Shown piece after piece: positions 4,301 to 33,022 of a DNA stretch of 55,072 nt. A model generated the notes under the pieces. It did no database searches. It saw nothing but the letters and a program-made list of their open reading frames with translations, and was not told where the DNA came from. Within the stretch, counting starts at the first letter, position 1. Each line of letters begins with the position of its first letter. The stretch is from NCBI GenBank assembly GCA_007120695.1, contig SKND01000199.1, forward strand, positions 1 through 55,072, in the 5' to 3' direction. A program made the translations under genes and the position numbers. This stretch comes from Bacteroidales bacterium. Its GTDB lineage: Bacteria; Bacteroidota; Bacteroidia; Bacteroidales; PUMT01.

Positions 4301-7300
4301 ATGAAACCTAAAAATCTCTTCAGTGCCAGGATAGTTCCGTTTCTGATTATAATTCTGGCTACAGTACTGCTATATTCCTTCTATTTTCTCTATTATATCC
4401 CAAAGCAGGAATCACAGGTCGAACAGCGTGCTTTCCGTATTATGAAGGAATTTGCCAAAAACATGCATGATAAACTTGACTATTATGATGCCCACTTTAA
4501 GAATTACAGCTTTTTCTATGCGATTGAACATCTTGTGGATGATGAAACTCCTCAACTTGAGGATTCTGTTAAACTTGAAATCAAGAAAAAAATAGCAGAC
4601 AATAAACAGGCAAAGAAATTAATTGAAAACCTCAACAAATCTATTAATACAGATATAGTTACAGTTACAAAAAATGACAAAGAAAGGAAACTTGAAGTAC
4701 ATGAAGAGATTTCTCAATTCAGGTTTATATCCAACATCGACTCGGTAAGTTATGATAAAGGGTTAAAAGAACTGAAGCTTAGTAAAGACACAATAGCCAT
4801 TATACTCAAATCCCTGAAAGTTGACACAATCAGAATTGCGAGTTCCAGGCAAATGCATGTAGTTGACTATGTTAAAATTCCGATTACTATGAAAAACCTG
4901 GGCGTTGACTCAGCAAAAATTGCAGATGCTCTGAAAAGCTTATTCGTTGACTCAGCAAAAATTGCAGATGCTCCGCAAAGCTTAGACGCTGATTCAGTCA
5001 AAACCACGAACAATCCAGATAACACTGAAACCAAATATTCCTCAGCTGTCCATTATGTTCCGATGACAACCTTCATGGAACATCTGAAATTTGATAAGTT
5101 GCTTAATAATATTGTTTTATTTTGTGACACGTCCATTATCTACAATAGCAGTCCCGAGGTTATTCAGGACATTACAAATCCCGGAATGCTAGCAGACACC
5201 GTCAAGAAAATGCAGGGAGGATTGATCCAGAAGATCAATATCCGTGGTGAAACTAACCATGTAATGGTCCTCCCAATTGATTTTCTAGGCAACCGGCTTT
5301 ACCTTGCAGGCTTCATTACAGAAACTGGTTTCCGGCAAAAAACACGGCATATCAACAGCCAGTTCCTCATCATCCTGGGAGGGATTTTTTTACTGTTGTT
5401 ATTCAGCATGCCCATCCTGAAAATTTTTCTCATCAGCAGAAATGAGCCACTGCATTCGCGCGACTGCACAGCAGGTACCTTTTCTTTGATTATTGTTGCG
5501 GGGTTCTCAATACTGATCGTTGTGAGTGTAATGAAGCATTATGTTGTTGACAAGCACTACCTTCAGGAAAGGATTGAGAATATTTCAAACACATTATACA
5601 ATAATGTTATATGTGATTTTAATTTAATAAAAGACCTGTACCAGGGTATAATTGAGCATGAAAATACTTCGAAAGATTCAATTGAACCTCTAGACACCCT
5701 TATAAAGACTGTTAATGCTGCATTTACTGGCAGCAATAATAATTTCCGGGATATTCCGGTAGATTACCAAAAGAAGGGGTTGCCATTGAATGAGATTTTC
5801 CTGATTGACTCAATCGGAGAAATAAGTAAGGCTGTTACCAGCACCGGTTTGTCCGGCCTGGTACCGTCCAATCTGGAGAAAAGACGATATTACAGTTATC
5901 TCAAGGACAACAGCGGCAAAAGCTGGACATACAAAAATAGTTATGACACAATCCAGAAATATTATATCGAATCCCTGAAGTCTTACAATTCAGGAAAAAA
6001 GGAAGTAGCCTTCTCGTTCAGATTATCAGAAAAGGCCTCCAAAAATTTTGGAACAAAAATACTAGCTATTACATCGCCACTTCCATCGCTTTACTCACAA
6101 ATATTGCCAGAGGATATGATTTTTATGATCATCAACGATAATGGCGATGTGCTTTTCCACTCCAACAAATCAAAAAACCTGCACGAGAATTTTCTTGCCG
6201 AATGTAGTGAAAATAAGTACCTGGAGGGGCTGTTGAAACACAGGGTAACAGATATCACACGTATTGTATATAACGAAAAACAATGGCTTGCAAGGGTTTA
6301 TCCTATAGAGGATGCACCTCTGTTCCATATCACCCTGATCGATCTTCAACACACGTATAACAAAAACGCACGCATTCTAATTTACACCTTTTATTTTATG
6401 CTTGCAACCTTTATCCTGATCCTGATCGGAACAGGTATTATACAATTGAGTAACCCGGACATAAGCAAATCCTTATCAAAACAATGGCTTTTCTACTGGT
6501 TGCAGTTCAGCGAAGAAAACAGGGAGTCCTATCTTCAACTGCTTGTTATACAGACAGCTATACTCCTTTGCCAGATAGCAGGCATTCTTATCAGTGATAA
6601 ACCGGTGACGATGTTTATTTACCAAATGTTTTTTATCGTCATTTCTGTTTATTTTGCAATGTCCATCCTTAAGTATGATCAAAACGGAAAGGCAGAAAAA
6701 AGGTCCACGACTCCTGCCCTGCCTCAGATTATTCTTATTCTGATCATGCTTATATTGACAGGAGTATTAATATATCTTAATCAAAAACCAATTCTAGCGC
6801 TGCCGTTTGCATTATTAATAGTTTTGGTATTACTAACTGGAAGATTGAAAAGGATTGATAAGACTCTTTCTCAAGGCTATTCCACAAAAACCATATTTCA
6901 TATTTATGTGTTTACCTGGCTGATTTGTATCTCAGCCATACCGGCTCTTCAGTATTATCAATCAGCGAAGGAGCAGGAAGAAGATTTGTGGAAGCGACAC
7001 AAACTGGAGTACATAGCAATGAAGAACCTGAACATGGTGCATGAATACAAAGAAGGGATGGAGAATGAGAAATGGTACAAACGAATTACAGGGGATACAC
7101 TGGATTACCTTAAAATCTCTTACAAAACAGATAAAGAAAACTGCAAACTTAGAACGTATAAGGGAGAAGCATGTGAACTATCTCCTGCCGACAGATTCTA
7201 TTCAAGGTTACCTGATCCTTTAACAAAAGGTAATCACCTGACCGGACTACTCAACAACAGAAGCACACATACGGAATGGTGGAGAAAATCCGGTAATGAC

Positions 7301-8536
7301 TCAATAATCTGCCTGAGGGTGAATGATAATAAGCTTATATATTCAAAACCAGGTTACGAAAAATATATTTCGGTAGAGCAAACCAGAAGCATCAAATTGG
7401 GAGCCGGCAAATGGTTCTTATACTTTACTGTACCCATATTGCTTGTCATTGCATTGCTTTGGTACCTGTTCCGGTACGTATCACGATTTGTTTTAAGAAC
7501 CGTTACGGTGGACTGGAAGGAACCAGCGGTGCCAGGCTGGGAAAATGTCATCGGCAACGACAACATAAAACAGATTTTACTTTGTAGTTTAACCGGAGAG
7601 CAATATCTCGAAGAAACACGTAACCATATAAAAGAGAAATCAAGGTCAGTTAAGAACCATAAAAAACCGGAGCTTCTCGTCGCGGGCATTAAGGAGATCA
7701 TTGAAGAAATGAAAAAGCCCGGTTATCAATATGTTGATATCATTTGGATTAAAGGTATTGGCAAATTAATTAAAGACCCGGAAGCTTTCGTGAATCAGCT
7801 TCCTGATCTGTATCAATTGACCAGTGACAACAAGGCAAAGATGATAATAGAAATTCCGTTCGGCCTCGATTATTTGAGAGAATATTATGAGAGCCTCCTG
7901 AAAGAAAGTACCTTGGAAAAAGGAGAAAAAGCACTGATTGAATCAACAATTTGCAAAATAGATGAGTTATTCAGTAGCTTTTACATCTATACTGGTAAAT
8001 TTATTCCGGAAGAGACTGATGCTGTATCGTCTTCAACGGATAGTAACCAAACCGGAAATACCCGGGAAGATGATGAAAGGCAACAAGCAAGTTATTATGC
8101 CTTCAAATCAAGGTACAGGCACATATGGAATAACCTGACCAGCCTGGAAAAGCTGACTCTAACAGATTTGTCGGCTGATGGTATGATAAATTTTAAAAAC
8201 AAGCACTCGATTGATCAGTTAAGAATAAAAGGATTAATCGAACTTACACCCGACCCTGCTATTACCTGTAATAATTTTCAGCGTTTCCTGACAAACGATA
8301 TTGATCGGGAAGAAACTAAAAAAATACAGGATAACCTGGGTAAGCAGGGTAAGTGGCATAATAACCGTTATCTTATCCTGCTGGCAATTATTCCTTTAAT
8401 TATCTTCATTTTTATTTCCCAGGGCACTTCTATTGACAGGGTTTTTGCTATTAGCACAGGCGGATTGGCGGTGTTGGCCGGAATAATGAGGTTGTTCGAC
8501 ACCAACATTTTCAGCCAATTTCCCGGTACAGATTAG
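4301..8536 (+). CDS. large multi-pass membrane protein of unknown function, possible sensor with extracytoplasmic domains and a C-terminal degenerate NTPase/winged-helix-like region
   Basis: Uninterrupted 1411-aa ORF; TM segments near the N-terminus, in the middle and at the C-terminus; no histidine kinase or Walker A motif seen. Confidence 0.85.
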   Translation: MKPKNLFSARIVPFLIIILATVLLYSFYFLYYIPKQESQVEQRAFRIMKEFAKNMHDKLDYYDAHFKNYSFFYAIEHLVDDETPQLEDSVKLEIKKKIADNKQAKKLIENLNKSINTDIVTVTKNDKERKLEVHEEISQFRFISNIDSVSYDKGLKELKLSKDTIAIILKSLKVDTIRIASSRQMHVVDYVKIPITMKNLGVDSAKIADALKSLFVDSAKIADAPQSLDADSVKTTNNPDNTETKYSSAVHYVPMTTFMEHLKFDKLLNNIVLFCDTSIIYNSSPEVIQDITNPGMLADTVKKMQGGLIQKINIRGETNHVMVLPIDFLGNRLYLAGFITETGFRQKTRHINSQFLIILGGIFLLLLFSMPILKIFLISRNEPLHSRDCTAGTFSLIIVAGFSILIVVSVMKHYVVDKHYLQERIENISNTLYNNVICDFNLIKDLYQGIIEHENTSKDSIEPLDTLIKTVNAAFTGSNNNFRDIPVDYQKKGLPLNEIFLIDSIGEISKAVTSTGLSGLVPSNLEKRRYYSYLKDNSGKSWTYKNSYDTIQKYYIESLKSYNSGKKEVAFSFRLSEKASKNFGTKILAITSPLPSLYSQILPEDMIFMIINDNGDVLFHSNKSKNLHENFLAECSENKYLEGLLKHRVTDITRIVYNEKQWLARVYPIEDAPLFHITLIDLQHTYNKNARILIYTFYFMLATFILILIGTGIIQLSNPDISKSLSKQWLFYWLQFSEENRESYLQLLVIQTAILLCQIAGILISDKPVTMFIYQMFFIVISVYFAMSILKYDQNGKAEKRSTTPALPQIILILIMLILTGVLIYLNQKPILALPFALLIVLVLLTGRLKRIDKTLSQGYSTKTIFHIYVFTWLICISAIPALQYYQSAKEQEEDLWKRHKLEYIAMKNLNMVHEYKEGMENEKWYKRITGDTLDYLKISYKTDKENCKLRTYKGEACELSPADRFYSRLPDPLTKGNHLTGLLNNRSTHTEWWRKSGNDSIICLRVNDNKLIYSKPGYEKYISVEQTRSIKLGAGKWFLYFTVPILLVIALLWYLFRYVSRFVLRTVTVDWKEPAVPGWENVIGNDNIKQILLCSLTGEQYLEETRNHIKEKSRSVKNHKKPELLVAGIKEIIEEMKKPGYQYVDIIWIKGIGKLIKDPEAFVNQLPDLYQLTSDNKAKMIIEIPFGLDYLREYYESLLKESTLEKGEKALIESTICKIDELFSSFYIYTGKFIPEETDAVSSSTDSNQTGNTREDDERQQASYYAFKSRYRHIWNNLTSLEKLTLTDLSADGMINFKNKHSIDQLRIKGLIELTPDPAITCNNFQRFLTNDIDREETKKIQDNLGKQGKWHNNRYLILLAIIPLIIFIFISQGTSIDRVFAISTGGLAVLAGIMRLFDTNIFSQFPGTD
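4904..5005 (+). repeat. 42-bp in-frame tandem repeat (14 aa, VDSAKIADALKSLF / VDSAKIADAPQSLD / ADSVKTT...)
   Basis: Copies begin at 4904, 4946 and (degenerate) 4988; the first two share 'gttgactcagcaaaaattgcagatgct'. Confidence 0.85.
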
Positions 8537-8894
8537 TTTTCTGTATGTTCCTGCATTGGTAATGTCCATCCCACCTCATAAAAGATACACTTCTTTCCAA
8601 CTCCTCGTATTCGTTAGAAAAGCAGGTCCGCCAGATCTCTTTATGTCTGATAATATGTAAGGATTAGACCATTTCTCCGACAAATCAGTTTTAAGCGCAA
8701 TTAGTACATGTAAATAATCTTGTGAAGACTCATTCATCGGAATATAAATTATTGCTTATGAATCTCACATGTGTTATTATGATCTTTTAGCAATACAAGT
8801 CAGATGTGACATTCATCCATTTGAAACACTGAACACGAATTACATGCTAAACATAATTAATTGAATATTAACTTGATTAACCTGATTTGTACGG

Positions 8895-9986
8895 ATGAAA
8901 AAGCAGGATATATTTTTGATGACGGTGCTGTATATGATAATGTTTATTTTCATATCGTGCAGTGAAGTTGACAGGCCTTTCTTAGCTGATAATGTTAACG
9001 GACAGCGGGACAATTCCGATAATGGTGAGTGGCTTGTTCCGGATGATGAGGTGTTTGATGGAGGCCCCGGAAAAGATGGTATTCCCGCAATTAGCAATCC
9101 CGAGTTTACGGGACCAGGAGAGGCTCAATATCTTACCGATAATGATCTTGTACTCGGATTGGTTAAGGATGGCGTAGTACGCGCTTATCCTCATAATATT
9201 CTGGATCGGCACGAGATAGTAAATGACTCATTTGATGACCTGGTAATTGCAGTAATTTATTGCCCGCTGACCGGAACAGGTACAGGTTGGAACCGAAGAG
9301 TAATGGGGAGCATCACTACATTTGGAGTGTCAGGACTTCTGTATAATTCAAATGTTATACCTTACGACCGGGAGACTGACAGCAACTGGTCACAAATTTT
9401 GCTCAAGGCAGTAAACGGGCCACTTAAGGGCACAAAAGCGGAGACCTTTAATCTTTTCGAGACAAGCTGGACCACGTGGAAAAGCATGTACCCCGAAACC
9501 CTTGTTCTATCGGAAAATACCGGCTACAAAAGGAATTACAAACTATCCCCATATGGCGATTATAAAACAAATAGCGCAATCTTGTTTCCGGTCAATAATT
9601 ACGATGACAGGTTGTACGGAAAAGAAAGAGTGCTTGGCGTGTTAGTGGATGATAAAGCAAAAGCCTACAGCTTCGAAAAATTTGGTACGTCAATATCATT
9701 GGTCCATGATACCCACAATGGTAAAGATCTGGTTATTGCCGGAAGCCAGGAGAAAAACTTCATTGTTGCATTCAGACGGGATGCCAGGAGTGGCCGGACA
9801 CTTCAGTTTAATGCTGTCGAAAACAGCTTGCCGGTCATTATGCAGGATAATGAAGGCACATTATATGATGTATTCGGACAGGCAGTTGAAGGACCGGGTA
9901 AGGGGCTTCATCTGCGTACCGTTACTCAGTTTATGGGTTATTGGTTTGCCTGGGCCGCCTTTTATCCTGAAATAGAGATATATTGA
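8895..9986 (+). CDS. DUF3179 domain-containing lipoprotein
   Basis: 363 aa; lipobox-like FISCSEV; DUF3179 signatures 'DGIPAISNPEF', 'VLGLVKDGVVRAYPHNILDRHEIVND', 'YCPLTGTG'. Confidence 0.85.
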   Translation: MKKQDIFLMTVLYMIMFIFISCSEVDRPFLADNVNGQRDNSDNGEWLVPDDEVFDGGPGKDGIPAISNPEFTGPGEAQYLTDNDLVLGLVKDGVVRAYPHNILDRHEIVNDSFDDLVIAVIYCPLTGTGTGWNRRVMGSITTFGVSGLLYNSNVIPYDRETDSNWSQILLKAVNGPLKGTKAETFNLFETSWTTWKSMYPETLVLSENTGYKRNYKLSPYGDYKTNSAILFPVNNYDDRLYGKERVLGVLVDDKAKAYSFEKFGTSISLVHDTHNGKDLVIAGSQEKNFIVAFRRDARSGRTLQFNAVENSLPVIMQDNEGTLYDVFGQAVEGPGKGLHLRTVTQFMGYWFAWAAFYPEIEIY

Positions 9987-11556: not shown

Positions 11557-12540
11557 TTAGATAATCACATTTCTGGCGAATGCATCAGCCAGGATCCTTT
11601 CAACCACTGCCTTATAATCAAGGCCTGTCTTTCCGGCTGCAGCAATAAAACCGGCATCAGGCGACAGGCAAGGGTTGGCATTGACTTCAAGCAGGAAGGG
11701 CTCATTATTTTGGTTGACCCGAAAATCAAAACGGGCATATCCGCCAAGATCAAACCCTTTCCAGCAACTGAGACTTATTTTTTTGAGTTTTTCAATGAGA
11801 CTGGCATCTTCACCGGTAAAATCAAAATGTCTTACAGAGTTTCTGTATTCAAAAGAGCCCTCGTCCCATTTTGAGGCATAATTCAGAATATGTGGCTTTC
11901 CCGGGGGATAATCTGTAAAACGTATTTCAGCAGGAGGCAAAACAAGTGGTTCATTTTTACCCCCGATAACAGCTATATTAAATTCACGGCCCTGAATATA
12001 CTCTTCAAGAAAAAGTTTTCTGTTTTTTCTGACAACCTGTAACCGGTCAATACTTGATTCATCCAGATAAAATACTGAATTATCTGTAATACCGGAGGAG
12101 CCATCTTCCCACACTGGTTTGATAATGTAGTTACCCTCTTGCATTTTATCCGTGATACTTTCACCATAATACCAACAGGGGGTAGGCAGTCCAAGTTCAA
12201 TAAACCGGCTTTTAGCAAGCACTTTGTGTGAGCTGATGTATAAGGGTAAGGACGCAGAACCCGTAAAGGGTATTTCAAGGCACTCCAGGAGGGTGGGAGC
12301 CAGGTGGATAAGCTCCCCCCTGCCACTTACCGTTTCAACAAGGTTAAACACCACATCTGGCTTTAGTTTAGTTAAGAACTCCCATGTAATCTTCATGTTA
12401 AGATCAAAATAGGCCCGCTGAGAAGAATAACCGCACAGTTGCATGGCTTTTTCAACCGCTTCAGCCTGTTCAAGTACATCCTGCTCGTCAGGCAATGGTT
12501 TGGCGGATATTTTGTTTATCAGGATTACAGCCTTTTTCAT
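11557..12540 (-). CDS. ATP-grasp ligase, D-alanine-D-alanine ligase-like
   Basis: 327 aa; 'YIIKPVWEDGSSGI', 'LFLEEYIQGREFNIAVIGG', 'ARFDFRVNQNNEPFLLEVNANPCLSPDAGF' (Mg/ATP-binding ExNxNP). Confidence 0.88.
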   Translation of the reverse strand: MKKAVILINKISAKPLPDEQDVLEQAEAVEKAMQLCGYSSQRAYFDLNMKITWEFLTKLKPDVVFNLVETVSGRGELIHLAPTLLECLEIPFTGSASLPLYISSHKVLAKSRFIELGLPTPCWYYGESITDKMQEGNYIIKPVWEDGSSGITDNSVFYLDESSIDRLQVVRKNRKLFLEEYIQGREFNIAVIGGKNEPLVLPPAEIRFTDYPPGKPHILNYASKWDEGSFEYRNSVRHFDFTGEDASLIEKLKKISLSCWKGFDLGGYARFDFRVNQNNEPFLLEVNANPCLSPDAGFIAAAGKTGLDYKAVVERILADAFARNVII

Positions 12541-12563
12541 AGTGTACAGGTTACCTTATATAG

Positions 12564-13664
12564 TTACTCCCCAGCCTTTACCGTTGAATATTTACCGTCT
12601 GGCCAGCGATCTGCTGAATCTGACAACCCGAGCTCTCCTGTGCCAACCAGCCTGAAATTATTACCATCCTTCACCGGTAAATTATTTAGCTTTTTCAATG
12701 CGGAGTCCATGATCATTTTCATCAACTCACTGTAGCTTATCCCATTTAATTTTGCAAGGATAGGAAGATCAGAATGTTCGGGGTGAAGACCAGCCAGGGG
12801 ATTTATTTCAAGAAAGTTTGGAATACCATGCCTGTCGTACCTGATATCTACCCTGCCCCCATCCTCACACCTGATCGCATTCCAAGAACGAAGGGCAAGT
12901 TCTTCACATTTGATGGCTTCTTCCGGGGGAGCAGGCAGGTATAAAACTCTTTCCTCACATTCTTCTTTATTATTGTATGAATAAACCTTTTGTTCCGCAT
13001 TGTCTTTTAATACAACTTCCATTACCCCGATACAGCGTGCATTTTTGCCTGTGCCAACTATCCCTGCAGTAAATTCCCTGCCGCTTAAATACTCTTCTAC
13101 CAGCACTGGTTGATTATATCTGGTGAGGAGCGAAAGGCAGGTTTCCCGCAAAGCCGGCTTTTTATAGATAACCGAATTGGCATTTATGCCCTTGCCTGTT
13201 CCTTCAGCCAGTGGTTTTGCAAAAAGGGGGAAAGGGATATTTATTTTATTTATATCTGCGGGCTCATGTACCACATAATATTCAGCGGTTTTAATACCTG
13301 CATTTTTCACTACTGTTTTGGCAAGAGACTTGTCCAGTGTAATGGTCATCACCACAGGGTCAGAGAAAACATAAGGAATACGGTAAGCATCAAGAAGTGC
13401 CGGCACCTGGGCCTCCCTGCCGGCACCATACATGCCTTCACAGATATTGAAAACAATATCCCATCTGCAACCCTTTGCAAGTTTTTCTGTTAAGGTCCGG
13501 ATATTTCCTATGCGATCTACCTCAAATCCCATTTTCATAAGTTCCGATTCTATGGCCTCAATAGTGCCTGCCCTGTCGAATTCGGCAGTCTCTTCTTCAG
13601 AATAACCCATTTTCAGATAGTCATCCCTTAAATCATAGCTAAAACCTACTTTAATTTTTATCAT
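12564..13664 (-). CDS. ATP-grasp ligase, D-alanine-D-alanine ligase-like (second paralogue)
   Basis: 366 aa; 'FPLFAKPLAEGTGKGI', 'PVLVEEYLSGREFTAGIVG', 'GRVDIRYDRHGIPNFLEINPLAGLHPEHSDLP'. Confidence 0.88.
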   Translation of the reverse strand: MIKIKVGFSYDLRDDYLKMGYSEEETAEFDRAGTIEAIESELMKMGFEVDRIGNIRTLTEKLAKGCRWDIVFNICEGMYGAGREAQVPALLDAYRIPYVFSDPVVMTITLDKSLAKTVVKNAGIKTAEYYVVHEPADINKINIPFPLFAKPLAEGTGKGINANSVIYKKPALRETCLSLLTRYNQPVLVEEYLSGREFTAGIVGTGKNARCIGVMEVVLKDNAEQKVYSYNNKEECEERVLYLPAPPEEAIKCEELALRSWNAIRCEDGGRVDIRYDRHGIPNFLEINPLAGLHPEHSDLPILAKLNGISYSELMKMIMDSALKKLNNLPVKDGNNFRLVGTGELGLSDSADRWPDGKYSTVKAGE

Positions 13665-13737
13665 TCTTATTCGTATATAGTATTGTTATCAATTTATTTA
13701 ATAATATGTTACTAAAATGCATATCTTTCTGTGAGCT

Positions 13738-15489
13738 TTAGCTCATGGGGCTTTCATATTGTTTATGCAATCCTCTGAAGAAACTTAAAGCATTTATCCC
13801 CAGATTTCTTGTCCTGTATCCACCCTCCTGAACAACCAGGACGGGCAATTTTAGTTCTCCGATCATTTTTCCATTTTCCTCCAGGTCAACATTATTTAAT
13901 TGCCATGTGCCTGTAGGATCACCTTTGGCAACATCCAGGCCAAGGGCCAGAACCAGGTAATCAGGTTTGAAGCTTTTTAGTTTATCCAGTGCTTTGCGTA
14001 GATATGATCGGTAAGCCGGACCGGACAACTGTTCAGGCAATGGATAATTAACATTAAACCCATATCCGGCCGACTCCCCCTTCTCATTGGCAAAACCACT
14101 AAAATAGGGGTATGCAAAGGAGGGATGCCCGTGAATGGAGATGGTCAGCACATCATCTCTTTTGTAAAAAATATCCTGCTGGCCGTTGCCATGATGATAA
14201 TCGATATCCAGCAATGCAACCTTTCCATATTTACTTAAGTAATTGGCGGCAATAGCGGCAGAATTAAAATAGCAGAAACCACCAAAGGATTTTCTTTCAG
14301 CATGATGTCCGGGTGGCCTGATCAGTGCATAGGCCAGTTTTCCCCCTTCTATAAGCAAATCAGCGCATGTAAGTGCGCAATCAACTGCCTTTCTTGAAGC
14401 CAGGTAGGCATTCCTGTTAAGTGGAGTGAATGTGTCTATACAATAATAACCGGCCCTTACTGAATCATCTTTTGGAGGCCGGGTTGAATTTCTTACAGGA
14501 AATACATAAGGATAAATTGACTTGCCTTCAGGAAGACTTTTACATATCCTCTTGAAGTATTCTATATAACCCCTGTCGTGTATTTCAAAAATATGTTTTT
14601 CACTGTAACTTTTGGGAGGATTCAGCTCAAACAAACCTGAAGGAAGCAGTTCATTAAGAATAGATTTAATCCTTACCGGAGCTTCTACGTAACCCCTTTC
14701 TCTTACATGATGGATACTATGTTTATCATTATAAATGAGTGGTATTTTAAAGGTCCCGCGAAGGTTTTGTCCTGACGGGGCCCTCTTCTGTCTTTTAATA
14801 TACCGGGGCGCACGTAGTTTCACCGGATTATCCTTTACCGAATTCAGGACCTTAATAATATATTCCTCAGGACAGTAATTTCGATATTTCCGTTCAAGTA
14901 TGGCGCGAATAATGATCTTTGCAGTTGTATTATCCATTGTGCCTTCCTTTCCCAGGAAATCACACACCAGGAACGGGGGACAATCATCAGTTTCTTTAAC
15001 AGGAGTCTCATATAGTGTATCTATAAGCGGGTAGGCGTGGTACTTTTCGTAGAATCTGAGACGGGCTATATTTTGCTGTATAAGTGATGAATCTCTGCAT
15101 AATTCTGGTTCATCCGGCAGACATTCAAAAAACAGCCCTATACAATTTAGATCAACAGCTTCCTCCTTTACTTTCTGATAAAGGGCACCTCCGATACCTC
15201 CCGATATTGTGTTTTTTATAGTTGCAACATAATCGAGATAGCAAAAGTGCAGGTCGGGAGCATACATTGACAGGGCAAAACCAAGTACAGTACCCGCCGA
15301 GTTTTCAGCAACGTAGAGTATTGTACGAAACCTGTATTTAAGTGGATCTTTCAATTGCATGGATACTTCATCCAGTTTTTCTTCAGAAAGAGTGGAAAAA
15401 TGAGACTTCATTATTGCCTTTACCTGTTCAATAGAGTTTTGGTCTACAGGTCTGTTAACATCATGTATACGCCTTATTCTGAACATCAT
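13738..15489 (-). CDS. GNAT-histone deacetylase/acetylpolyamine amidohydrolase fusion
   Basis: 583 aa; N-terminal GNAT-like region (aa ~1-170), then HDAC motifs 'IRPPGHHAERKSFGGFCYFN', 'DIDYHHGNGQQDIF', 'LGLDVAKGDPTG', 'VQEGGYR'. Confidence 0.88.
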   Translation of the reverse strand: MMFRIRRIHDVNRPVDQNSIEQVKAIMKSHFSTLSEEKLDEVSMQLKDPLKYRFRTILYVAENSAGTVLGFALSMYAPDLHFCYLDYVATIKNTISGGIGGALYQKVKEEAVDLNCIGLFFECLPDEPELCRDSSLIQQNIARLRFYEKYHAYPLIDTLYETPVKETDDCPPFLVCDFLGKEGTMDNTTAKIIIRAILERKYRNYCPEEYIIKVLNSVKDNPVKLRAPRYIKRQKRAPSGQNLRGTFKIPLIYNDKHSIHHVRERGYVEAPVRIKSILNELLPSGLFELNPPKSYSEKHIFEIHDRGYIEYFKRICKSLPEGKSIYPYVFPVRNSTRPPKDDSVRAGYYCIDTFTPLNRNAYLASRKAVDCALTCADLLIEGGKLAYALIRPPGHHAERKSFGGFCYFNSAAIAANYLSKYGKVALLDIDYHHGNGQQDIFYKRDDVLTISIHGHPSFAYPYFSGFANEKGESAGYGFNVNYPLPEQLSGPAYRSYLRKALDKLKSFKPDYLVLALGLDVAKGDPTGTWQLNNVDLEENGKMIGELKLPVLVVQEGGYRTRNLGINALSFFRGLHKQYESPMS

Positions 15490-15539
15490 CTTACATATTG
15501 GATGTGAATAATGAAACTCATGTAAACCTGAAAGAATAA

Positions 15540-16841
15540 TTATAGGGAGCAGCCATCCTGTGATTGAACTCCACTGCCAGGCAAAGGCCCTTCAGGATAA
15601 AGGAACGTCCTGTTTTCGTAGTTAACAAGGAGGTAACCCTCATTACACTTTTCGACTACATAACCGGGCAATAATGGAATTTTCCCTCCACCACCAGGTG
15701 CATCGATAACGAAATGCGGAATGGCGTACCCCGAGGTAAAGCCCCTTAACCCCCTTATTATTTCCAGCCCTTTCGACACCGGTGTTCTGAAATGGGCCGA
15801 GCCTGGAATCGGATCACACTGATAAAGGTAATAGGGTCTAACTCTCATCTTTAATAACAGGTGGGTTAGCTTTTTAAAAACCTCCACATCATCATTTATA
15901 CCCTGCAGCAGAACAGTCTGGCTACCCAGCGGGATTCCGGCATCGGCCAGACGGTTACAGGCAAACTCTGTCTCGGGTGTCACTTCATCGGGGTGGGTAA
16001 AATGTATACTCATAAATAACGGGTGATACCTTCGCAACATGCTTACCAGTCCCCGTGTTATACGCTGGGGAAGTACTACAGGTACTTTGGTACCTATTCT
16101 GATAATCTCAACATGCGAAATGGCGCGGAGGTTTGAGAGAAGATACTCCAGTCGCCAATCGGGCAAAGTAAGCGGATCTCCCCCTGAGATCAGTACGTCC
16201 CTTATCTCGCTGTGTGCCCTTATATAATCCAGGGCTTTGTCCCACTCCCTTCGGCCTGAGTGACATTTATCCTTTTTCGAGACCAGGTGCGAGCGGGTAC
16301 AATAGCGGCAATATGCTGCACAGAAACCTGTAACCAGGAAAAGGACCCTGTCCGGGTACCTGTGAACAAGGTTTGCAACTGGACTGTGCTTGTTTTCGCC
16401 AAGCGGATCTGCCTTTTCAAAAGCAGATACAATTAATTCATCAAGAACGGGGACCATAGTTTTGCGCAAGGCCTGCCCAGAATTACTCCTGCTAAGCAAT
16501 GATGCAAAATAGGGAGTTATCCTCAGAGGCAGATGCACATTGCCGGAAGATGGTATTGCCTCATTTTCCGTTAATTGCAGAAATCCGGATAGCTGATTGA
16601 AAGCCGTAAAACTATTACTTATCTGCCATTGCCAGTCATTCCATTCTGAATCAGAAGCTGAAGGGAAATTTTTTTCACGAAAGATTCGTGAATGCGCACT
16701 GATTGGGATTGAGATTTGTTTGTGAAAACCTGAAAAATATTTTCTTGTTTTTTTGGTATCCGGACATAGCCTGCCTGGAGGCTCTGTTTCGGTTTCCTCA
16801 TTAATTAAAGAGGAATTGGAAATCAATTTTCCGGGTTTCAT
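15540..16841 (-). CDS. KamA family radical SAM protein (lysine 2,3-aminomutase-like)
   Basis: 433 aa; CxxxCxxC 'CAAYCRYCTRS'; 'YQCDPIPGSAHFRTPVSKG'; PLP-lysine motif 'DAPGGGGKIPLLPGYV'. Confidence 0.9.
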   Translation of the reverse strand: MKPGKLISNSSLINEETETEPPGRLCPDTKKTRKYFSGFHKQISIPISAHSRIFREKNFPSASDSEWNDWQWQISNSFTAFNQLSGFLQLTENEAIPSSGNVHLPLRITPYFASLLSRSNSGQALRKTMVPVLDELIVSAFEKADPLGENKHSPVANLVHRYPDRVLFLVTGFCAAYCRYCTRSHLVSKKDKCHSGRREWDKALDYIRAHSEIRDVLISGGDPLTLPDWRLEYLLSNLRAISHVEIIRIGTKVPVVLPQRITRGLVSMLRRYHPLFMSIHFTHPDEVTPETEFACNRLADAGIPLGSQTVLLQGINDDVEVFKKLTHLLLKMRVRPYYLYQCDPIPGSAHFRTPVSKGLEIIRGLRGFTSGYAIPHFVIDAPGGGGKIPLLPGYVVEKCNEGYLLVNYENRTFLYPEGPLPGSGVQSQDGCSL

Positions 16842-26402: not shown

Positions 26403-26855
26403 ATGGACAGACTAGTTAACCAATTCAAAAATTATACTATGAAACAACTGGGTGTTTTAATGCTGTTTTTATCAGTGCTTGTTATAGTTTCGTGCGACAA
26501 GGATGAAGACGAGGTGTCAGACAGGTTCAGGTTTCTTACAAGCGTTGATTGGGAATCCGACAGCCTGCTTGTGAACGGGATGGAAGCAGGCGGCGATGGC
26601 CAGATGCTTGAAAACTTCAGGGGTACTGCCAGGTTTAACGAAGACGGAACAGGAAGTTTTGGAGGGATTACCGGCACGTGGGCGTTCTCACAGGATGAGA
26701 CCGAACTTATAATAAATACTGAAGAGTTGCCATTTGCCCTGACAACAAAAATTATTGAGCTGACTGCCTCATCACTCAAGGTCACGGCAAATTTTCCGAA
26801 CCCCTTAAATCCGGTAGATCAGCTTAAGATCAGAATGACATTCAAGGCACAATGA
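26403..26855 (+). CDS. small lipoprotein (lipocalin-like fold suspected)
   Basis: 150 aa; the second Met (MKQLGVLMLFLSVLVIVSCDKDEDE) gives a signal peptide and lipobox; overlaps the next gene by 4 bp. Confidence 0.7.
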   Translation: MDRLVNQFKNYTMKQLGVLMLFLSVLVIVSCDKDEDEVSDRFRFLTSVDWESDSLLVNGMEAGGDGQMLENFRGTARFNEDGTGSFGGITGTWAFSQDETELIINTEELPFALTTKIIELTASSLKVTANFPNPLNPVDQLKIRMTFKAQ

Positions 26856-29104
26856 TACCCCGTGTTTTCCCGGCTTTATTGCTGTTTGTTGCACTTTCAG
26901 TCAGCGCAGCAGATGTGCCGGGAATCATAGAGGGGAGAATATACGACAGGGAAACCGGTGAACCCCTTCCGCATGCAACAGTATTGTATGGCCGGAACCT
27001 GGGAACAACATCCGGTATTGACGGATTTTTCCTGCTAAGTATTGAATCCGGGCATCACGTGCTTACATTCAGGTATGTAGGGTACAGGACCATTACCCGC
27101 GCGGTTTCTGTAGCGCCCGGAGATACTGTGCTGGTGCAAGTGGGACTGGAACTGGATGCCGCTGAGATTGACCAGGTAGTGGTAAGTGCCGGTAAGATCG
27201 AGCAGCGTGTGTCAGAATTGACGGTTTCATTACACATCATAAAACCTGAAGTAATATCATCCTCCCATATTACCGATGCCACCGAACTGCTGAACAAAAC
27301 ACCCGGAATCGAGGTGATGGACGGCCAGGCTTCAATAAGAGGCGGCAGTGGCTATAGTTATGGTGCCGGCAGCAGGGTGCTGGCCCTTATCGACGGACTA
27401 CCTGTGCTTTCGGCTGACGCCGGGAATATAAAATGGCACTTTCTTCCGCTTGAAAATATCTCACAGGTAGAGGTAATAAAAGGTGCATCATCGGTTCTGT
27501 ACGGATCATCTGCACTAAACGGGGTAATTAATTTCAGGACAGCCCGTCCGGGTACCGAACCTGTCACCAGGTTCTACATTGAATCAGGCATGTTTGACCG
27601 GCCCCGTAACGATGAGTGGGTCTGGTGGGACTCCCCGAGGACTTACTCGAGTACCTCACTATCTCATTTGCAGCGTTCAGGCAACACCGATCTGGGGGCA
27701 TCAATCCATATTATGAATGATAACGGATACCGCCGGTTGAATGATGAGCGTCTTGGCAGGGCCAATGTGCTCATAAGACATGATGACCGCAAGGTGGATG
27801 GGCTCTCATACGGCACAACAATAAATGCCGGGTTAACAAAGAAAAGGGACTTTATTCTCTGGGAAAATGCTTGGACAGGTGCACTGAAACAGGATGAGTC
27901 TGCTGCCATGCAGATGACGGGTAGTCTTGTTACCATCGATCCCTATATTACTTTTAAAGGAGAAGGCGGATCACAGCATGATCTGCGTACCCGGTTCCAG
28001 GCTTCTGACAACGGTTTTACTGATGCAGTGCATAATGACAGCAGGGCAATATCACTTTATGCAGAATACCAGTACCGGCAAAAAATTTCTGACAGGATTG
28101 ATGTAAATGCCGGATTGCTGGAGAACTACAGCCGCATTGCTTCCGCTTTTTACGGAGATCATGATGCCCTTAATCTTGCCGGTTATATACAGGCCGACCT
28201 TACACCGGTCAGAAGGCTAAGGATGGTGGCAGGCCTGCGACTGGAATATAATTCCCTGAACGGCGAAGGCGACAGGCCGGTAGCTCTTTTCAGGGCAGGG
28301 ATAAATTACAGGGTTATGGATTACACGTTTCTGAGAGCCTCATTTGGCCAGGGATACAGGTATCCTTCCATTGCCGAGAAGCATGCTGCAACCACCGTGG
28401 GTTCGGTGCGGATTGTGCCTAATCCCGGCATAGTGCCTGAGTCAGGATGGAGTTCGGAACTTGGGCTCAAACAGGGGATATCGACAGGCAGTATCCTGGG
28501 GCAGATTGATATTGCACTCTTCTATTCAGAAAACAGCGATATGATTGAATATCTGTTTGGCATCTATCCTGTTGCGGGAGAGGAATATAGTAGTTTTGGC
28601 TTTATGGCCTCGAATGTTGAACAATCAAGGGTGTACGGCACTGAGATCGAGTTTGCTCTTTCCGCCCCGGCCGGGCAATTCACAAACTCGGTTACCGGCG
28701 GATATGTGTTCATGTATCCTGTTGAATTCAACCCCGATTCCGGCAAAGATACGGGTACCTACCTTAAATACAGACGTAAACACTCTGCAAAAATCAATTT
28801 TACCACCAGATTCCGGCGGTTTGAAATGGGAATCAGCATGCAGGCAGCATCTCCGGTACTGAATATTGATAAAGTGTTTTTAAGCGAACTGACACGGGAA
28901 ACAATCCTGCCTGGATTCTATGACTACTGGAATAACTCGGACAGGGGTTATTTCCTGGTTGATCCGCATTTTGGTTATTCACTAAGTGACCGGATAAAAA
29001 TCTCATTTGCCGTCAAAAATGCATTCAACACCGAATACATGGGACGTCCGGGTGATATTATGCCTCACCGGAATTTCAGCCTGCGCCTTACCGGGATCTT
29101 CTGA
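26852..29104 (+). CDS. TonB-dependent receptor with carboxypeptidase-like domain
   Basis: 750 aa; 'GIIEGRIYDRETGEPLPHATV', plug 'ELLNKTPGIEVMDGQASIRGGSGYSYGAGSRVLALIDGLPVLS', C-terminal barrel ending 'FSLRLTGIF'. Confidence 0.93.
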   Translation: MIPRVFPALLLFVALSVSAADVPGIIEGRIYDRETGEPLPHATVLYGRNLGTTSGIDGFFLLSIESGHHVLTFRYVGYRTITRAVSVAPGDTVLVQVGLELDAAEIDQVVVSAGKIEQRVSELTVSLHIIKPEVISSSHITDATELLNKTPGIEVMDGQASIRGGSGYSYGAGSRVLALIDGLPVLSADAGNIKWHFLPLENISQVEVIKGASSVLYGSSALNGVINFRTARPGTEPVTRFYIESGMFDRPRNDEWVWWDSPRTYSSTSLSHLQRSGNTDLGASIHIMNDNGYRRLNDERLGRANVLIRHDDRKVDGLSYGTTINAGLTKKRDFILWENAWTGALKQDESAAMQMTGSLVTIDPYITFKGEGGSQHDLRTRFQASDNGFTDAVHNDSRAISLYAEYQYRQKISDRIDVNAGLLENYSRIASAFYGDHDALNLAGYIQADLTPVRRLRMVAGLRLEYNSLNGEGDRPVALFRAGINYRVMDYTFLRASFGQGYRYPSIAEKHAATTVGSVRIVPNPGIVPESGWSSELGLKQGISTGSILGQIDIALFYSENSDMIEYLFGIYPVAGEEYSSFGFMASNVEQSRVYGTEIEFALSAPAGQFTNSVTGGYVFMYPVEFNPDSGKDTGTYLKYRRKHSAKINFTTRFRRFEMGISMQAASPVLNIDKVFLSELTRETILPGFYDYWNNSDRGYFLVDPHFGYSLSDRIKISFAVKNAFNTEYMGRPGDIMPHRNFSLRLTGIF

Positions 29105-29422: not shown

Positions 29423-29518
29423 ATGAAGAGTTTGACTGTAAAGAAGAAAGAGGAGATAAAAGAACAGGCACAGTGCTGTGCCAAAAAATCAAAAATCGTG
29501 GCAGGCTGCCATGATTGA
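29423..29518 (+). CDS. candidate RiPP precursor peptide, Cys-containing (31 aa)
   Basis: MKSLTVKKKEEIKEQAQCCAKKSKIVAGCHD; charged N-terminal part and CC...C tail, about 90 bp upstream of the SPASM maturase; absent from the supplied ORF list because of its size. Confidence 0.55.
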   Translation: MKSLTVKKKEEIKEQAQCCAKKSKIVAGCHD

Positions 29519-29610
29519 GAAGTTTCAGGCCGGACATTTTAATGAAGCTTTTAAGTATTCGCTTAGCGATAGTCTGATAATCCACAGGAAACCTTTGCCG
29601 GTTTTTTTCT

Positions 29611-30996
29611 GTGAAACAAGAGGCAGTAATAAAACTGACTTCACCGGTTGATACAGGTTTGTTCAATATGATCTTTTCCGGCAAAATGGAACTATCCAGG
29701 TTTAATATTATATCGGAGATCAAAGATTCTGATCACTGTTTTATAATTAATTCCCTTTACGGGAGTGCTGATATTATAGACAAGGATACCTGCAATGCCC
29801 TCCTTACGGGGAAGGCATCGGGTGAAGAGTTATCTGCAAAGGGGTACCTGGTTGACCCCGAAAATGAGAAGGCCGCATTCCGGACAGCATACCTCAGGTT
29901 CATAGATGAAAGAGATAACGATGAGATCCAGCTCTTTTTTGTGCCGGGCTACAGTTGCAATTTTAATTGTTCCTATTGTTACCAGGGTAAATACGAGAGA
30001 ATGGCCGGGGGGCTGACCAGGGAGATAACAGATGCTTTCTTCAGGCATACTGACATTGAATTCGCAGGCAGGCGCAGGTATATAACTATTTTTGGGGGAG
30101 AGCCCCTGCTTAATGGCGGGCATCATCGTGAAAACATAAGGTACATAATTGAATGTGCTGCTGAAAGGAATATACAAATAGCAATAGTTACCAACGGTTA
30201 TCATATTTCTGAGTATATGGACCTGATGAAGAAGTCCACTATACGTGAGATCCAGGTGACCCTTGACGGGCCCCGGGAGGTGCACGACAAACGGCGAACC
30301 CTGAAAAACGGTGAAGGTACATTTGACAGGATAGCTGAAGGAGTAGAATTGCTTCTGAAAAATGATATTCCTGTCAATCTGAGGATGGTGGCCGACAGGG
30401 ATAATATTGACAGCCTTCCTGCACTCGCGCAGTTTGCAATTGACAGGAAATGGACATCCTGCGGGCACTTTAGTACCCAGATAGGCAGGAATTATGAGCT
30501 GCACGATTGCCAGGTAGAGACGACTGGACGGCTGTTTTCACGCATCGAGATGTACAGCGAACTTTACAGGCTTATAAAAAAGTATCCCCATATACTGGAA
30601 TTTCATAGGCCGGCTTTTGCTGTTTCAAGGGCATTGTATGAGAGCGGGGAACTGCCTCCGCCACTTTTCGATGCATGTCCGGGAACCAAGACTGAATGGG
30701 CCTTTGATTACCGGGGTAATATTTATGCATGTACTGCTACAGTTGGTAAAAAAGGGGAGGAGCTGGGCGTGTTTTTCCCCGAAAGGGAAATGTATAAGGA
30801 TAAGATTGAGGAGTGGGAGGAGAGGGATATTCTTTCTATAAAGGAGTGTAGCGAGTGCAACCTTGGCCTGATATGCGGAGGCGGTTGTGCCTCAGTGGCC
30901 AGGAACCGGACCGGTTGTAACGGGAGTCCCGATTGCCGTCCGGTAAAAGAGCTTCTGGAATTAGGTATAGCGGCTTATTTCCCTGAGGATTCTTAA
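29611..30996 (+). CDS. radical SAM/SPASM domain peptide maturase
   Basis: 461 aa (GTG start); 'GYSCNFNCSYCYQGKY', 'TIFGGEPLLN', SPASM-type Cys motif 'CPGTKTEWAFDYRGNIYACTATVGK...CSECNLGLICGGGCASVARNRTGCNGSPDC'. Confidence 0.88.
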   Translation: MKQEAVIKLTSPVDTGLFNMIFSGKMELSRFNIISEIKDSDHCFIINSLYGSADIIDKDTCNALLTGKASGEELSAKGYLVDPENEKAAFRTAYLRFIDERDNDEIQLFFVPGYSCNFNCSYCYQGKYERMAGGLTREITDAFFRHTDIEFAGRRRYITIFGGEPLLNGGHHRENIRYIIECAAERNIQIAIVTNGYHISEYMDLMKKSTIREIQVTLDGPREVHDKRRTLKNGEGTFDRIAEGVELLLKNDIPVNLRMVADRDNIDSLPALAQFAIDRKWTSCGHFSTQIGRNYELHDCQVETTGRLFSRIEMYSELYRLIKKYPHILEFHRPAFAVSRALYESGELPPPLFDACPGTKTEWAFDYRGNIYACTATVGKKGEELGVFFPEREMYKDKIEEWEERDILSIKECSECNLGLICGGGCASVARNRTGCNGSPDCRPVKELLELGIAAYFPEDS

Positions 30997-31073
30997 ATGC
31001 TGCTTTCAACCTTTATACCGTCAGGCAGCTATCTGTCGTAAATGATCAAATTGTATTACTAAAAATTTAAACC

Positions 31074-32342
31074 ATGCAGGAAATTAGCGCTAAAGAATTC
31101 GACGATGTTATCAGCAGCGAAAAACCGGTGCTGGTTGATTTTTACTCCACTGAATGTCCTCCCTGTGATGCACTGGCTCCTAAACTTGAGAGCCTGGAGA
31201 AACTTTTCAGCGAGGATGTAACTTTTGTTAAGATCTTCAGGCAGGGTAACAGGGATCTGGCTGATAAGCTGGGGGTCAAATCATCGCCCACCCTGCTTTT
31301 TTATGAGGATGGCAGGGAGGTGTGTCAGCGGCTTTCCGGAGGTATTAAGCGTTCTGAGATAATCCGAGAGATACGTCATGTGGCCGGCAAAGAAAAGACT
31401 GACAAATTACTGGCCGGTTTAAAGCCTGTTGTTACAAATACTGATGTGGCGGTACTGGGCGCCGGCCCCGGAGGACTCACTGCGGGATTGTACCTGTGCC
31501 AGGCCAAGATAGACACTACCCTTATCGACATTGCTTTGCCTGGCGGATATGTGGCTACAACCCATATGGTTTCGAATTATCCGGGTTTTATAGAGCCACA
31601 GCCGGGATATATGCTTTCACACAACATGTCAGAACAGACAAAAAGATGCGGAACCATATACAAGGTAGCCGTTGATGTGACTAAAGTCGACCTGGTCAGG
31701 AAAGAGATAGTAATTGATGATTACGAGACAATAAAGGCCAAAAAGATAGTTATCGCAACGGGTACTTCTCCGCGAAAGCTTAATATTCCAGGTGAGCAGG
31801 AGTTTATGGGTAAGGGTATTTCATATTGTGCTACGTGCGATGCCAAATATTTTGAGGACAAGGAGGTTATTGTTATAGGTGGCGGAAATTCGGCTGTTGA
31901 GGAGTCTGCATTTATCTCAAAGTTTGCGTCAAAAATTACTGTCGTTCATCAGTTCGATAAACTACAGGCAAACAAGGAGGCGCAGGAAAAAGCTTTTGCC
32001 GATAAAAAAATGTCGTTCCTTTTTGAACATGAACCCCGGTCGTTCATGCGCAAAGGTGACAAGATGGAGGTTGAAGTTGAGGAGCTTAAAACCGGAAAGC
32101 GTAAAGTGCTGACAGCCGACGGGGTATTTGTTTTTGTAGGACTGATTCCCAACCTTACGATATTTACAGATAAAATGGAGACTGATCAGTGGGGTTACAT
32201 AAAGGTAAATGAAGACATGCAGACCAGCATTGAGGGGGTTTATTCAGTTGGCGACATAAACAGTAAAAAATACCGCCAGATAACCACGGCAGTTGCAGAT
32301 GGCACGATAGCTGCCATATCTATTACAAAGGAGATGGATTAG
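31074..32342 (+). CDS. thioredoxin-thioredoxin reductase fusion (FAD-dependent oxidoreductase)
   Basis: 422 aa; N-terminal Trx 'VLVDFYSTECPPCDALAPKLESL', then 'VAVLGAGPGGLTAGLYL', redox-active 'CATCDAKYF', 'VIGGGNSAVEES', C-terminal 'GVYSVGDINSKKYRQITTAVADG'. Confidence 0.92.
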   Translation: MQEISAKEFDDVISSEKPVLVDFYSTECPPCDALAPKLESLEKLFSEDVTFVKIFRQGNRDLADKLGVKSSPTLLFYEDGREVCQRLSGGIKRSEIIREIRHVAGKEKTDKLLAGLKPVVTNTDVAVLGAGPGGLTAGLYLCQAKIDTTLIDIALPGGYVATTHMVSNYPGFIEPQPGYMLSHNMSEQTKRCGTIYKVAVDVTKVDLVRKEIVIDDYETIKAKKIVIATGTSPRKLNIPGEQEFMGKGISYCATCDAKYFEDKEVIVIGGGNSAVEESAFISKFASKITVVHQFDKLQANKEAQEKAFADKKMSFLFEHEPRSFMRKGDKMEVEVEELKTGKRKVLTADGVFVFVGLIPNLTIFTDKMETDQWGYIKVNEDMQTSIEGVYSVGDINSKKYRQITTAVADGTIAAISITKEMD

Positions 32343-32353
32343 CAGCGGGGTCA

Positions 32354-33022
32354 TTAGCCGGAATGGAGCTTTTGCAGGAGCAGATCCAGCATTTTTCCCA
32401 GTCCCCGATCCGGATGAACCTCCTTTACCGGTGACAGGCCCAGAAGGCTGGTTCTTGCTTTATTAATCATATCCAGGTTTATTTGCTTCCTGTCGCAATT
32501 ATTGCAGTAGCATAAAACAGCAATTGCACTTTTGAGGGTTTCTGATCTGACCCTGACCGTGCAGTTGGAATAACGGCCCGGGTGAATATGGATATGACGG
32601 CCCGGAATTTTACCGGGAAGTAATACCCAGACTGAGCCGTCACTAAGCGTGGTTGCCCGGTACGATGATCCGGCTGAACTGATCCATTGCAGGTATTCCT
32701 TTTCTCCCAGGATGTTTAGGCGTCTGAAATACCCGGTCATCTCCCTTGCAATTTGCTCCGGCGAGAGATAGCCTGTGTAAAAATCCATTTGCGAATTTCC
32801 AATTACAATGAGATCCTCCATGAGATTCAGGGCTGACCCTGATTCATTCACGGCATCAGGGTTTTTTGGCCCGGGTAATCCGGTTTTCCTTCCGGCAGGC
32901 TCTTCCCGGTTTCTGAAAGTCCTGATGAATTCAGCCACATACCCTGCATGATGCTTCAGGCTGCTGAACAGGAACGGCGCCGGTACATAATATTTAGATG
33001 TGATTCTTTGTGTTGAAAACAT
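32354..33022 (-). CDS. conserved-looking hypothetical protein
   Basis: 222 aa; 'SDGSVWVLLPGKIPGRHIHIHPGRYSNCTVRVRSETLKSAIAVL'; no family recognised. Confidence 0.65.
   Translation of the reverse strand: MFSTQRITSKYYVPAPFLFSSLKHHAGYVAEFIRTFRNREEPAGRKTGLPGPKNPDAVNESGSALNLMEDLIVIGNSQMDFYTGYLSPEQIAREMTGYFRRLNILGEKEYLQWISSAGSSYRATTLSDGSVWVLLPGKIPGRHIHIHPGRYSNCTVRVRSETLKSAIAVLCYCNNCDRKQINLDMINKARTSLLGLSPVKEVHPDRGLGKMLDLLLQKLHSG

Follow-up and report, generated by a model that had tools for sequence, protein, structure and literature searches.

What does a short cysteine-containing peptide do when it is encoded beside a radical SAM/SPASM maturase and a thioredoxin-thioredoxin reductase (Trx-TrxR) fusion? 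Three plus-strand genes in the 55,072-nucleotide stretch of Bacteroidales DNA analysed here (the window) raise this question. An initial annotation placed them at 29423-32342, and the open reading frames confirm the genes and their strands, as well as the length of the fusion, its CPPC and CATC motifs and the convergent gene that follows (Table 1). The same annotation reported no adjacent protease or ABC exporter, and we also find neither among the genes flanking the cassette in the window: a TonB receptor lies upstream, and a type II pantothenate kinase-like protein, a ROK protein and one unassigned protein lie downstream.

Table 1. Coordinates of the cassette and adjoining features in the window
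Feature	Position	Strand	Basis or remark
Compact ArsM-type SAM methyltransferase, 211 aa	25720..26355	+	NF008823 match below cut-off; PDB sequence and fold matches
Small lipoprotein-like ORF, probably not core	26403..26855	+	In 6 loci, those of this genus
TonB-dependent receptor, genus-level insertion	26852..29104	+	Between methyltransferase and peptide
Precursor peptide, 31 aa, N-terminal part Lys-rich	29423..29518	+	Homologues for 85/85 non-redundant loci/genomes
Invariant core codons A-Q-C-C-A-K-x-S-x4-G-C-H-D	29468..29515	+	11/16 positions fixed over 85 loci
Radical SAM/SPASM peptide maturase, 436 aa from probable start	29686..30996	+	Motif, PDB and predicted-structure matches
Thioredoxin (CPPC)-thioredoxin reductase (CATC) fusion, 422 aa	31074..32342	+	FAD fold, motifs
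Convergent gene 3' of Trx-TrxR fusion	32354-33022	-

Linkage and distribution of the cassette

A maturase search within the family was positive in 11 of 16 genomes, own genome counted, and scanning the collection yielded 175 relatives, 80 of them close loci with at least 52% identity. With duplicates removed, the locus set comprises 85 non-redundant loci. Most belong to Bacteroidota, and other contig titles name Spirochaetes, Ignavibacteria, Deltaproteobacteria, Elusimicrobia, Bdellovibrionales and Acidobacteria; because most carriers are metagenome-assembled genomes (MAGs), single phylum labels may be binning errors. Record titles place many of these MAGs in sediments, groundwater and lakes. 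An isolate-type record, Carboxylicivirga linearis FB218 (L077), also carries the cassette. A plasmid search returned only distant maturases (25-28% identity), and no plasmid carriage was seen.

The Trx-TrxR gene shares a locus with the maturase in 81 of the 85 cases. In three of the others (L053, L100 and L105) the contig ends just behind the maturase, which leaves L046 as the only local absence. The peptide and maturase share a locus in 83 of 85 and lie within 900 bases of each other in 81; in L044 and L083 the peptide is further upstream with other genes between, and in the other two genomes (L054/L082) it sits on another contig, beside the methyltransferase described below. We considered selenocysteine variants for the four loci that seemingly had no peptide, and rejected them when an ordinary peptide was found upstream (two) or on another contig (two). 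Split cassettes (L054/L082 and L164/L165; two genomes) carry maturase and Trx-TrxR on one contig and methyltransferase and peptide on another, and even there the methyltransferase adjoins the peptide.

Co-occurrence genome by genome gives the same picture. In a phylum sample of 297 genomes from 141 genera, peptide, maturase, Trx-TrxR and compact methyltransferase are all present in the same five genomes and nowhere else. In an order sample of 198 genomes, peptide and Trx-TrxR each occur in 23 and jointly in 21 (P = 6e-24). The four mismatches comprise two genomes that have Trx-TrxR and no pattern match and carry an ALCCAK peptide, one in which peptide, maturase and methyltransferase accompany a TrxR that is divergent or broken, and genome G378, with an orphan peptide. 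The persistent Trx-TrxR linkage for which the initial annotation had suggested searching is thus real; the absence of linkage in other genomes, which it had named as the outcome that would count against its proposal, is not what we find.

The orphan peptide copy (L178, G378:C3, about 120298-120345) lies in a genome that is 99% complete, in which cassette maturase, compact methyltransferase and Trx-TrxR were not found.

A frozen peptide core

The window precursor reads MKSLTVKKKEEIKEQAQCCAKKSKIVAGCHD and is followed by a stop codon. All 85 loci conform to the core consensus AQCCAKxSxxxxGCH(D/N), in which the last residue is D, and N once; a Q-to-L variant, ALCCAK, occurs in two further genomes outside this set. 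The core is encoded by 85 different nucleotide sequences, with third codon positions varying freely. Because 11 of the 16 C-terminal residues are fixed while the core DNA differs everywhere, strong purifying selection must act on the peptide as a protein. Among homologues the precursor is 30-53 aa long, with a Lys-rich leader of variable length, and no NCBIfam or Pfam model matches the peptides. As a control, the peptide DNA pattern was read backwards over the same genome sets; it gave 0 matches in 297 + 198 + 30 genomes. The real pattern occurs once per positive genome, with exactly one copy in 30 of 30 carrier genomes, and its matches are far beyond chance.

An intrinsic terminator is clear between peptide and maturase in 17 of 81 loci. 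The terminator-like hairpins look as if precursor output exceeds maturase output. We looked for such a terminator in the window and found none there, and we therefore do not claim attenuation for it. At L044:4938-4980, a terminator-like hairpin followed by a T run lies directly 3' of the peptide gene.

A SPASM maturase resembling CteB

The listed maturase ORF spans 29611-30996 (461 aa), but alignments with relatives begin only near residue 26, so that the start is most likely at 29686 (MELSRFNI...). Numbered from there, the CxxxCxxC motif (C91/C95/C98) and a seven-Cys SPASM set (331, 349, 388, 391, 397, 401 and 417), the signature of two auxiliary clusters, are kept in 85 of 85 relatives. Pfam identifies a Radical_SAM protein, and the predicted structure has a pLDDT of 90. 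Its N-terminus is modelled, at high pLDDT, as strands 7-11, 18-22 and 27-31 and helices 33-40, 47-51 and 58-76, three of each, consistent with a predicted RRE-like domain. Matches to viperin models reflect the shared radical-SAM core, and we rejected a defence role.

CteB is the top PDB match in both the sequence (E=3.9e-14) and the fold (E=3.7e-19) comparison. The CteB/SCIFF ranthipeptide system (5WGG, 5WHY; TIGR03974) has the same SPASM maturase architecture with an N-terminal peptide-recognition-like domain, but identity over the fold alignment is about 17%, TIGR03974 scores 77.5 bits against a cut-off of 425, the precursor here has three Cys rather than six, and the methyltransferase and Trx-TrxR are partners here. 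No NCBIfam maturase model reaches its cut-off. The closest are CefB (NF038107; 152.6 bits, cut-off 600), TIGR04463 (137.6, cut-off 525), Clo7bot (120.1, cut-off 600) and PapB (108.8, cut-off 340), and their precursor motifs differ from ours. PQQ and mycofactocin also start from a short, strongly conserved precursor that undergoes SPASM radical-SAM processing and is used by the producing cell. In contrast to those systems, we saw no PqqA/MftA-like precursor and no dedicated dehydrogenase at these loci, and the mycofactocin maturase model scores 51 bits against a cut-off of 265.

A compact ArsM-type methyltransferase as fourth member

The upstream neighbour in most loci is an ArsM-type methyltransferase, present in 77 of 85 (several of the others are cut by the contig start) and usually directly upstream of the peptide. 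In the window it lies 3 kb upstream, with the lipoprotein-like ORF and the TonB receptor between. In another genome of the same genus (G009, L022), the methyltransferase directly precedes the peptide and no TonB receptor intervenes, which marks the gap as a genus-level insertion. The lipoprotein-like ORF and the receptor are conserved together within the genus; the former has a weak, below-cut-off match to BSAP-5i immunity proteins (E=2.5e-4).

The methyltransferase matches the NCBIfam arsenite methyltransferase model NF008823 with E=3.6e-53 and 180.8 bits, below the cut-off of 263, and its best PDB matches by both sequence and fold are ArsM/AS3MT. Residues C25, C113 and C163 align with C72, C174 and C224 of CmArsM, which we take, as established knowledge, to be its As(III)-binding residues; C25 is kept in 75 of 77 methyltransferases, and C113 and C163 each in 77 of 77. 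The family thus shares with ArsM/AS3MT the fold and the three As(III)-site cysteines; AS3MT, for which residue roles were taken from PMC9013690, is known to depend on thiol and on Trx/TrxR (PMC9013690). The compact enzyme differs from ArsM at its N-terminus, which bears a CC dyad (C21-C22). Another extra cysteine is C40. At about 210 aa it is about 70 aa shorter than canonical ArsM, the compact enzymes group in a single clade that excludes 25 canonical ArsM sequences (100/100 support, with long branches on both sides), and the gene travels with the peptide and maturase. In the phylum sample the lowest-scoring of the five carriers reaches 245 bits, versus 149 for the best match elsewhere, and some ArsM homologue is present in 151 of 297 genomes, the compact form only with the cassette. 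In four or more of these five carriers the compact enzyme coexists with a separate ArsM homologue, so methylating As may not be its function.

The host genome encodes a second, canonical-type ArsM homologue (G000:C428:1848-2351; 36% identity). A PADLOC mad2 match of the compact methyltransferase (E=1.1e-22) reflects the shared methyltransferase domain, and a defence role was rejected.

A Trx-TrxR fusion without the NADPH motif

In the fusion, CPPC corresponds to C28/C31 and CATC to C252/C255, and both motifs are fixed in 78 of 78 homologues; Pyr_redox_2 (E=8.7e-55) identifies the FAD fold. An FAD enzyme with CATC resembles thioredoxin reductase and AhpF, and the N-terminal Trx-type domain recalls AhpF. 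Unlike these enzymes, however, the fusion has a single Trx domain with CPPC, scores below the TIGR01292 and AhpF cut-offs and replaces HRRxxxR by HQFxxx(Q/T). The NADPH motif HRRxxxR is absent from all 78 fusions. At the site aligned to HRRDELR of 4GCM, the window protein has HQFxxxQ; HQF is kept in 77 of 78, the third position is never Arg (78/78), and practically all fusions read HQFxxx(Q/T). Thioredoxin reductases without HRRxxxR include NADH-dependent Thermoplasma and F420-dependent Methanocaldococcus enzymes (PMC6262447). As an NADH-dependent reductase also lacks the motif, NADH is the likely electron donor here.

Recurring neighbours

Among the 85 loci, the recurring neighbours are DUF6132-like small membrane proteins (31 loci; DUF6132 is our own tentative name for a family that has no Pfam match here), DUF1847 (21), DUF302 (20) and sulfide:quinone reductase-like proteins (17). 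Extra thioredoxins, OsmC, rhodanese, and Crp and MarR regulators also recur near cassettes. The 25 most frequent neighbour families include no ABC exporter or peptidase, and none of the operon neighbours was recognised as a classical ars gene (arsR, acr3, arsC). A TonB receptor is found in 16 of 85 loci and recurs in L058, L070, L074, L088 and L093.

In L074, an inserted TonB receptor (7295-9598) separates the maturase from Trx-TrxR, which hints at an occasional role for TonB uptake in the system. Elsewhere in the window, a minus-strand cluster (11557-16841) encodes a lysine-2,3-aminomutase-like radical SAM protein, a histone-deacetylase-like protein and two D-Ala-D-Ala-ligase-like ATP-grasp proteins, whose product may be a beta-amino acid or small peptide.

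Discussion

The explanation that we favour, at a confidence just short of even, is that a four-gene RiPP cassette makes an intracellular, cofactor-like Cys peptide, which would act as a thiol/soft-metalloid ligand or redox partner of the methyltransferase and be recycled by Trx-TrxR. The initial annotation had also proposed a cofactor-like peptide that acts inside the cell rather than as a bacteriocin. An invariant core, the lack of a recurring exporter or peptidase and the single copy per genome favour that part of its proposal; its picture of the partners was incomplete, as it overlooked the methyltransferase, which is more likely than Trx-TrxR alone to use the peptide or to partner with it. 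A bacteriocin-type sactipeptide or ranthipeptide, as the maturase family and the short Cys peptide might suggest by class, is hardly credible given a single-copy core that is near-identical across several phyla and the missing exporter and peptidase genes.

How might such a cofactor work? The maturase would install one or more modifications involving the core Cys residues, most likely a thioether cross-link. The remaining thiol or thiols, perhaps with the His/Asp, could coordinate a soft metal(loid) or work as a redox thiol, and the peptide could be a thiol ligand, carrier or reductant for the methyltransferase. Elsewhere, glutathione plays the thiol role for ArsM. In each cycle Trx-TrxR, probably driven by NADH, would reduce disulfides on the peptide and/or the methyltransferase. 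In vitro, GSH, thioredoxin and thioredoxin reductase all serve ArsM-type enzymes as cofactors (PMC9013690), and a peptide thiol and a Trx-TrxR beside an ArsM-type enzyme are coherent for that reason. Candidate substrates are As, Sb, Se or sulfur species, a range kept wide by the recurring sulfur-type neighbours and the second ArsM homologue. Put more fully, and with a probability somewhat below even, the idea is that a previously undescribed peptide-derived thiol cofactor, made by a radical-SAM enzyme and essentially the same molecule across several phyla, replaces glutathione and comes with its own ArsM-type methyltransferase and NADH-type Trx system for soft-metalloid/sulfur chemistry.

One difficulty with a cofactor for the methyltransferase is that the peptide could be the substrate of this enzyme and of Trx-TrxR, not their partner. 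The methyltransferase would then be a RiPP tailoring enzyme that modifies the peptide as the maturase does, for example by Cys S-methylation, Trx-TrxR would only keep the substrate Cys reduced, and the peptide alone would be the redox cofactor or metal chaperone. Methyltransferase and peptide do stay together when the cassette splits, the genomes carry a second, canonical ArsM homologue, and AS3MT in its reduced state is capable of methylating cysteines in a protein, namely its own (PMC9013690). Yet the As(III)-site cysteines are fixed (two in 77/77 and one in 75/77), beyond the apparent need of a peptide methylase, and we regard tailoring as somewhat unlikely. The favoured explanation is also weakened by its genomic company, with no classical ars neighbours and recurring ones that look sulfur/redox-related.

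These neighbours suit a role in reactive-sulfur or selenium handling, in which the peptide would carry a persulfide, selenide or sulfur, the methyltransferase would cap it or methylate sulfide or selenide, and Trx-TrxR would release it. The SQR-like, OsmC, rhodanese, sulfur-transport-domain, thioredoxin, DUF302 and DUF1847 neighbours, and the many MAGs titled as from sediments, groundwater and lakes, are consistent with such chemistry; however, none of these neighbours occurs in more than 31 of the 85 loci and none is in the window, and we consider this role unlikely. Very improbable, in our judgement, is a secreted metallophore that is exported, chelates metal and returns via the adjacent TonB receptor. 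A receptor does separate methyltransferase from peptide in this genus and, in L074, maturase from Trx-TrxR, but receptors occur in only 16 loci, no exporter or leader peptidase recurs, and in G009 the methyltransferase and peptide are adjacent without one.

The cassette is a new combination of known enzyme kinds around a new peptide family. No NCBIfam or Pfam model covers this cassette, and we found no description of it in the literature searched, which took in only a minority of the subscription journals, so it may have been mentioned before. There is a realistic chance that the peptide is a new peptide cofactor. To our knowledge, very few ribosomal peptides act as cofactors in the producing cell. 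A frozen core with travelling partner enzymes is seen in cofactor peptides and not in antibiotic RiPPs, and a 16-residue core frozen over several phyla, with three partner enzymes, bears this signature. If the product is a thiol/metalloid cofactor, it would show how these bacteria carry out thiol-dependent methylation by means of a peptide thiol dedicated to it, and would connect the peptide chemistry of radical-SAM enzymes with the biogeochemistry of arsenic and sulfur.
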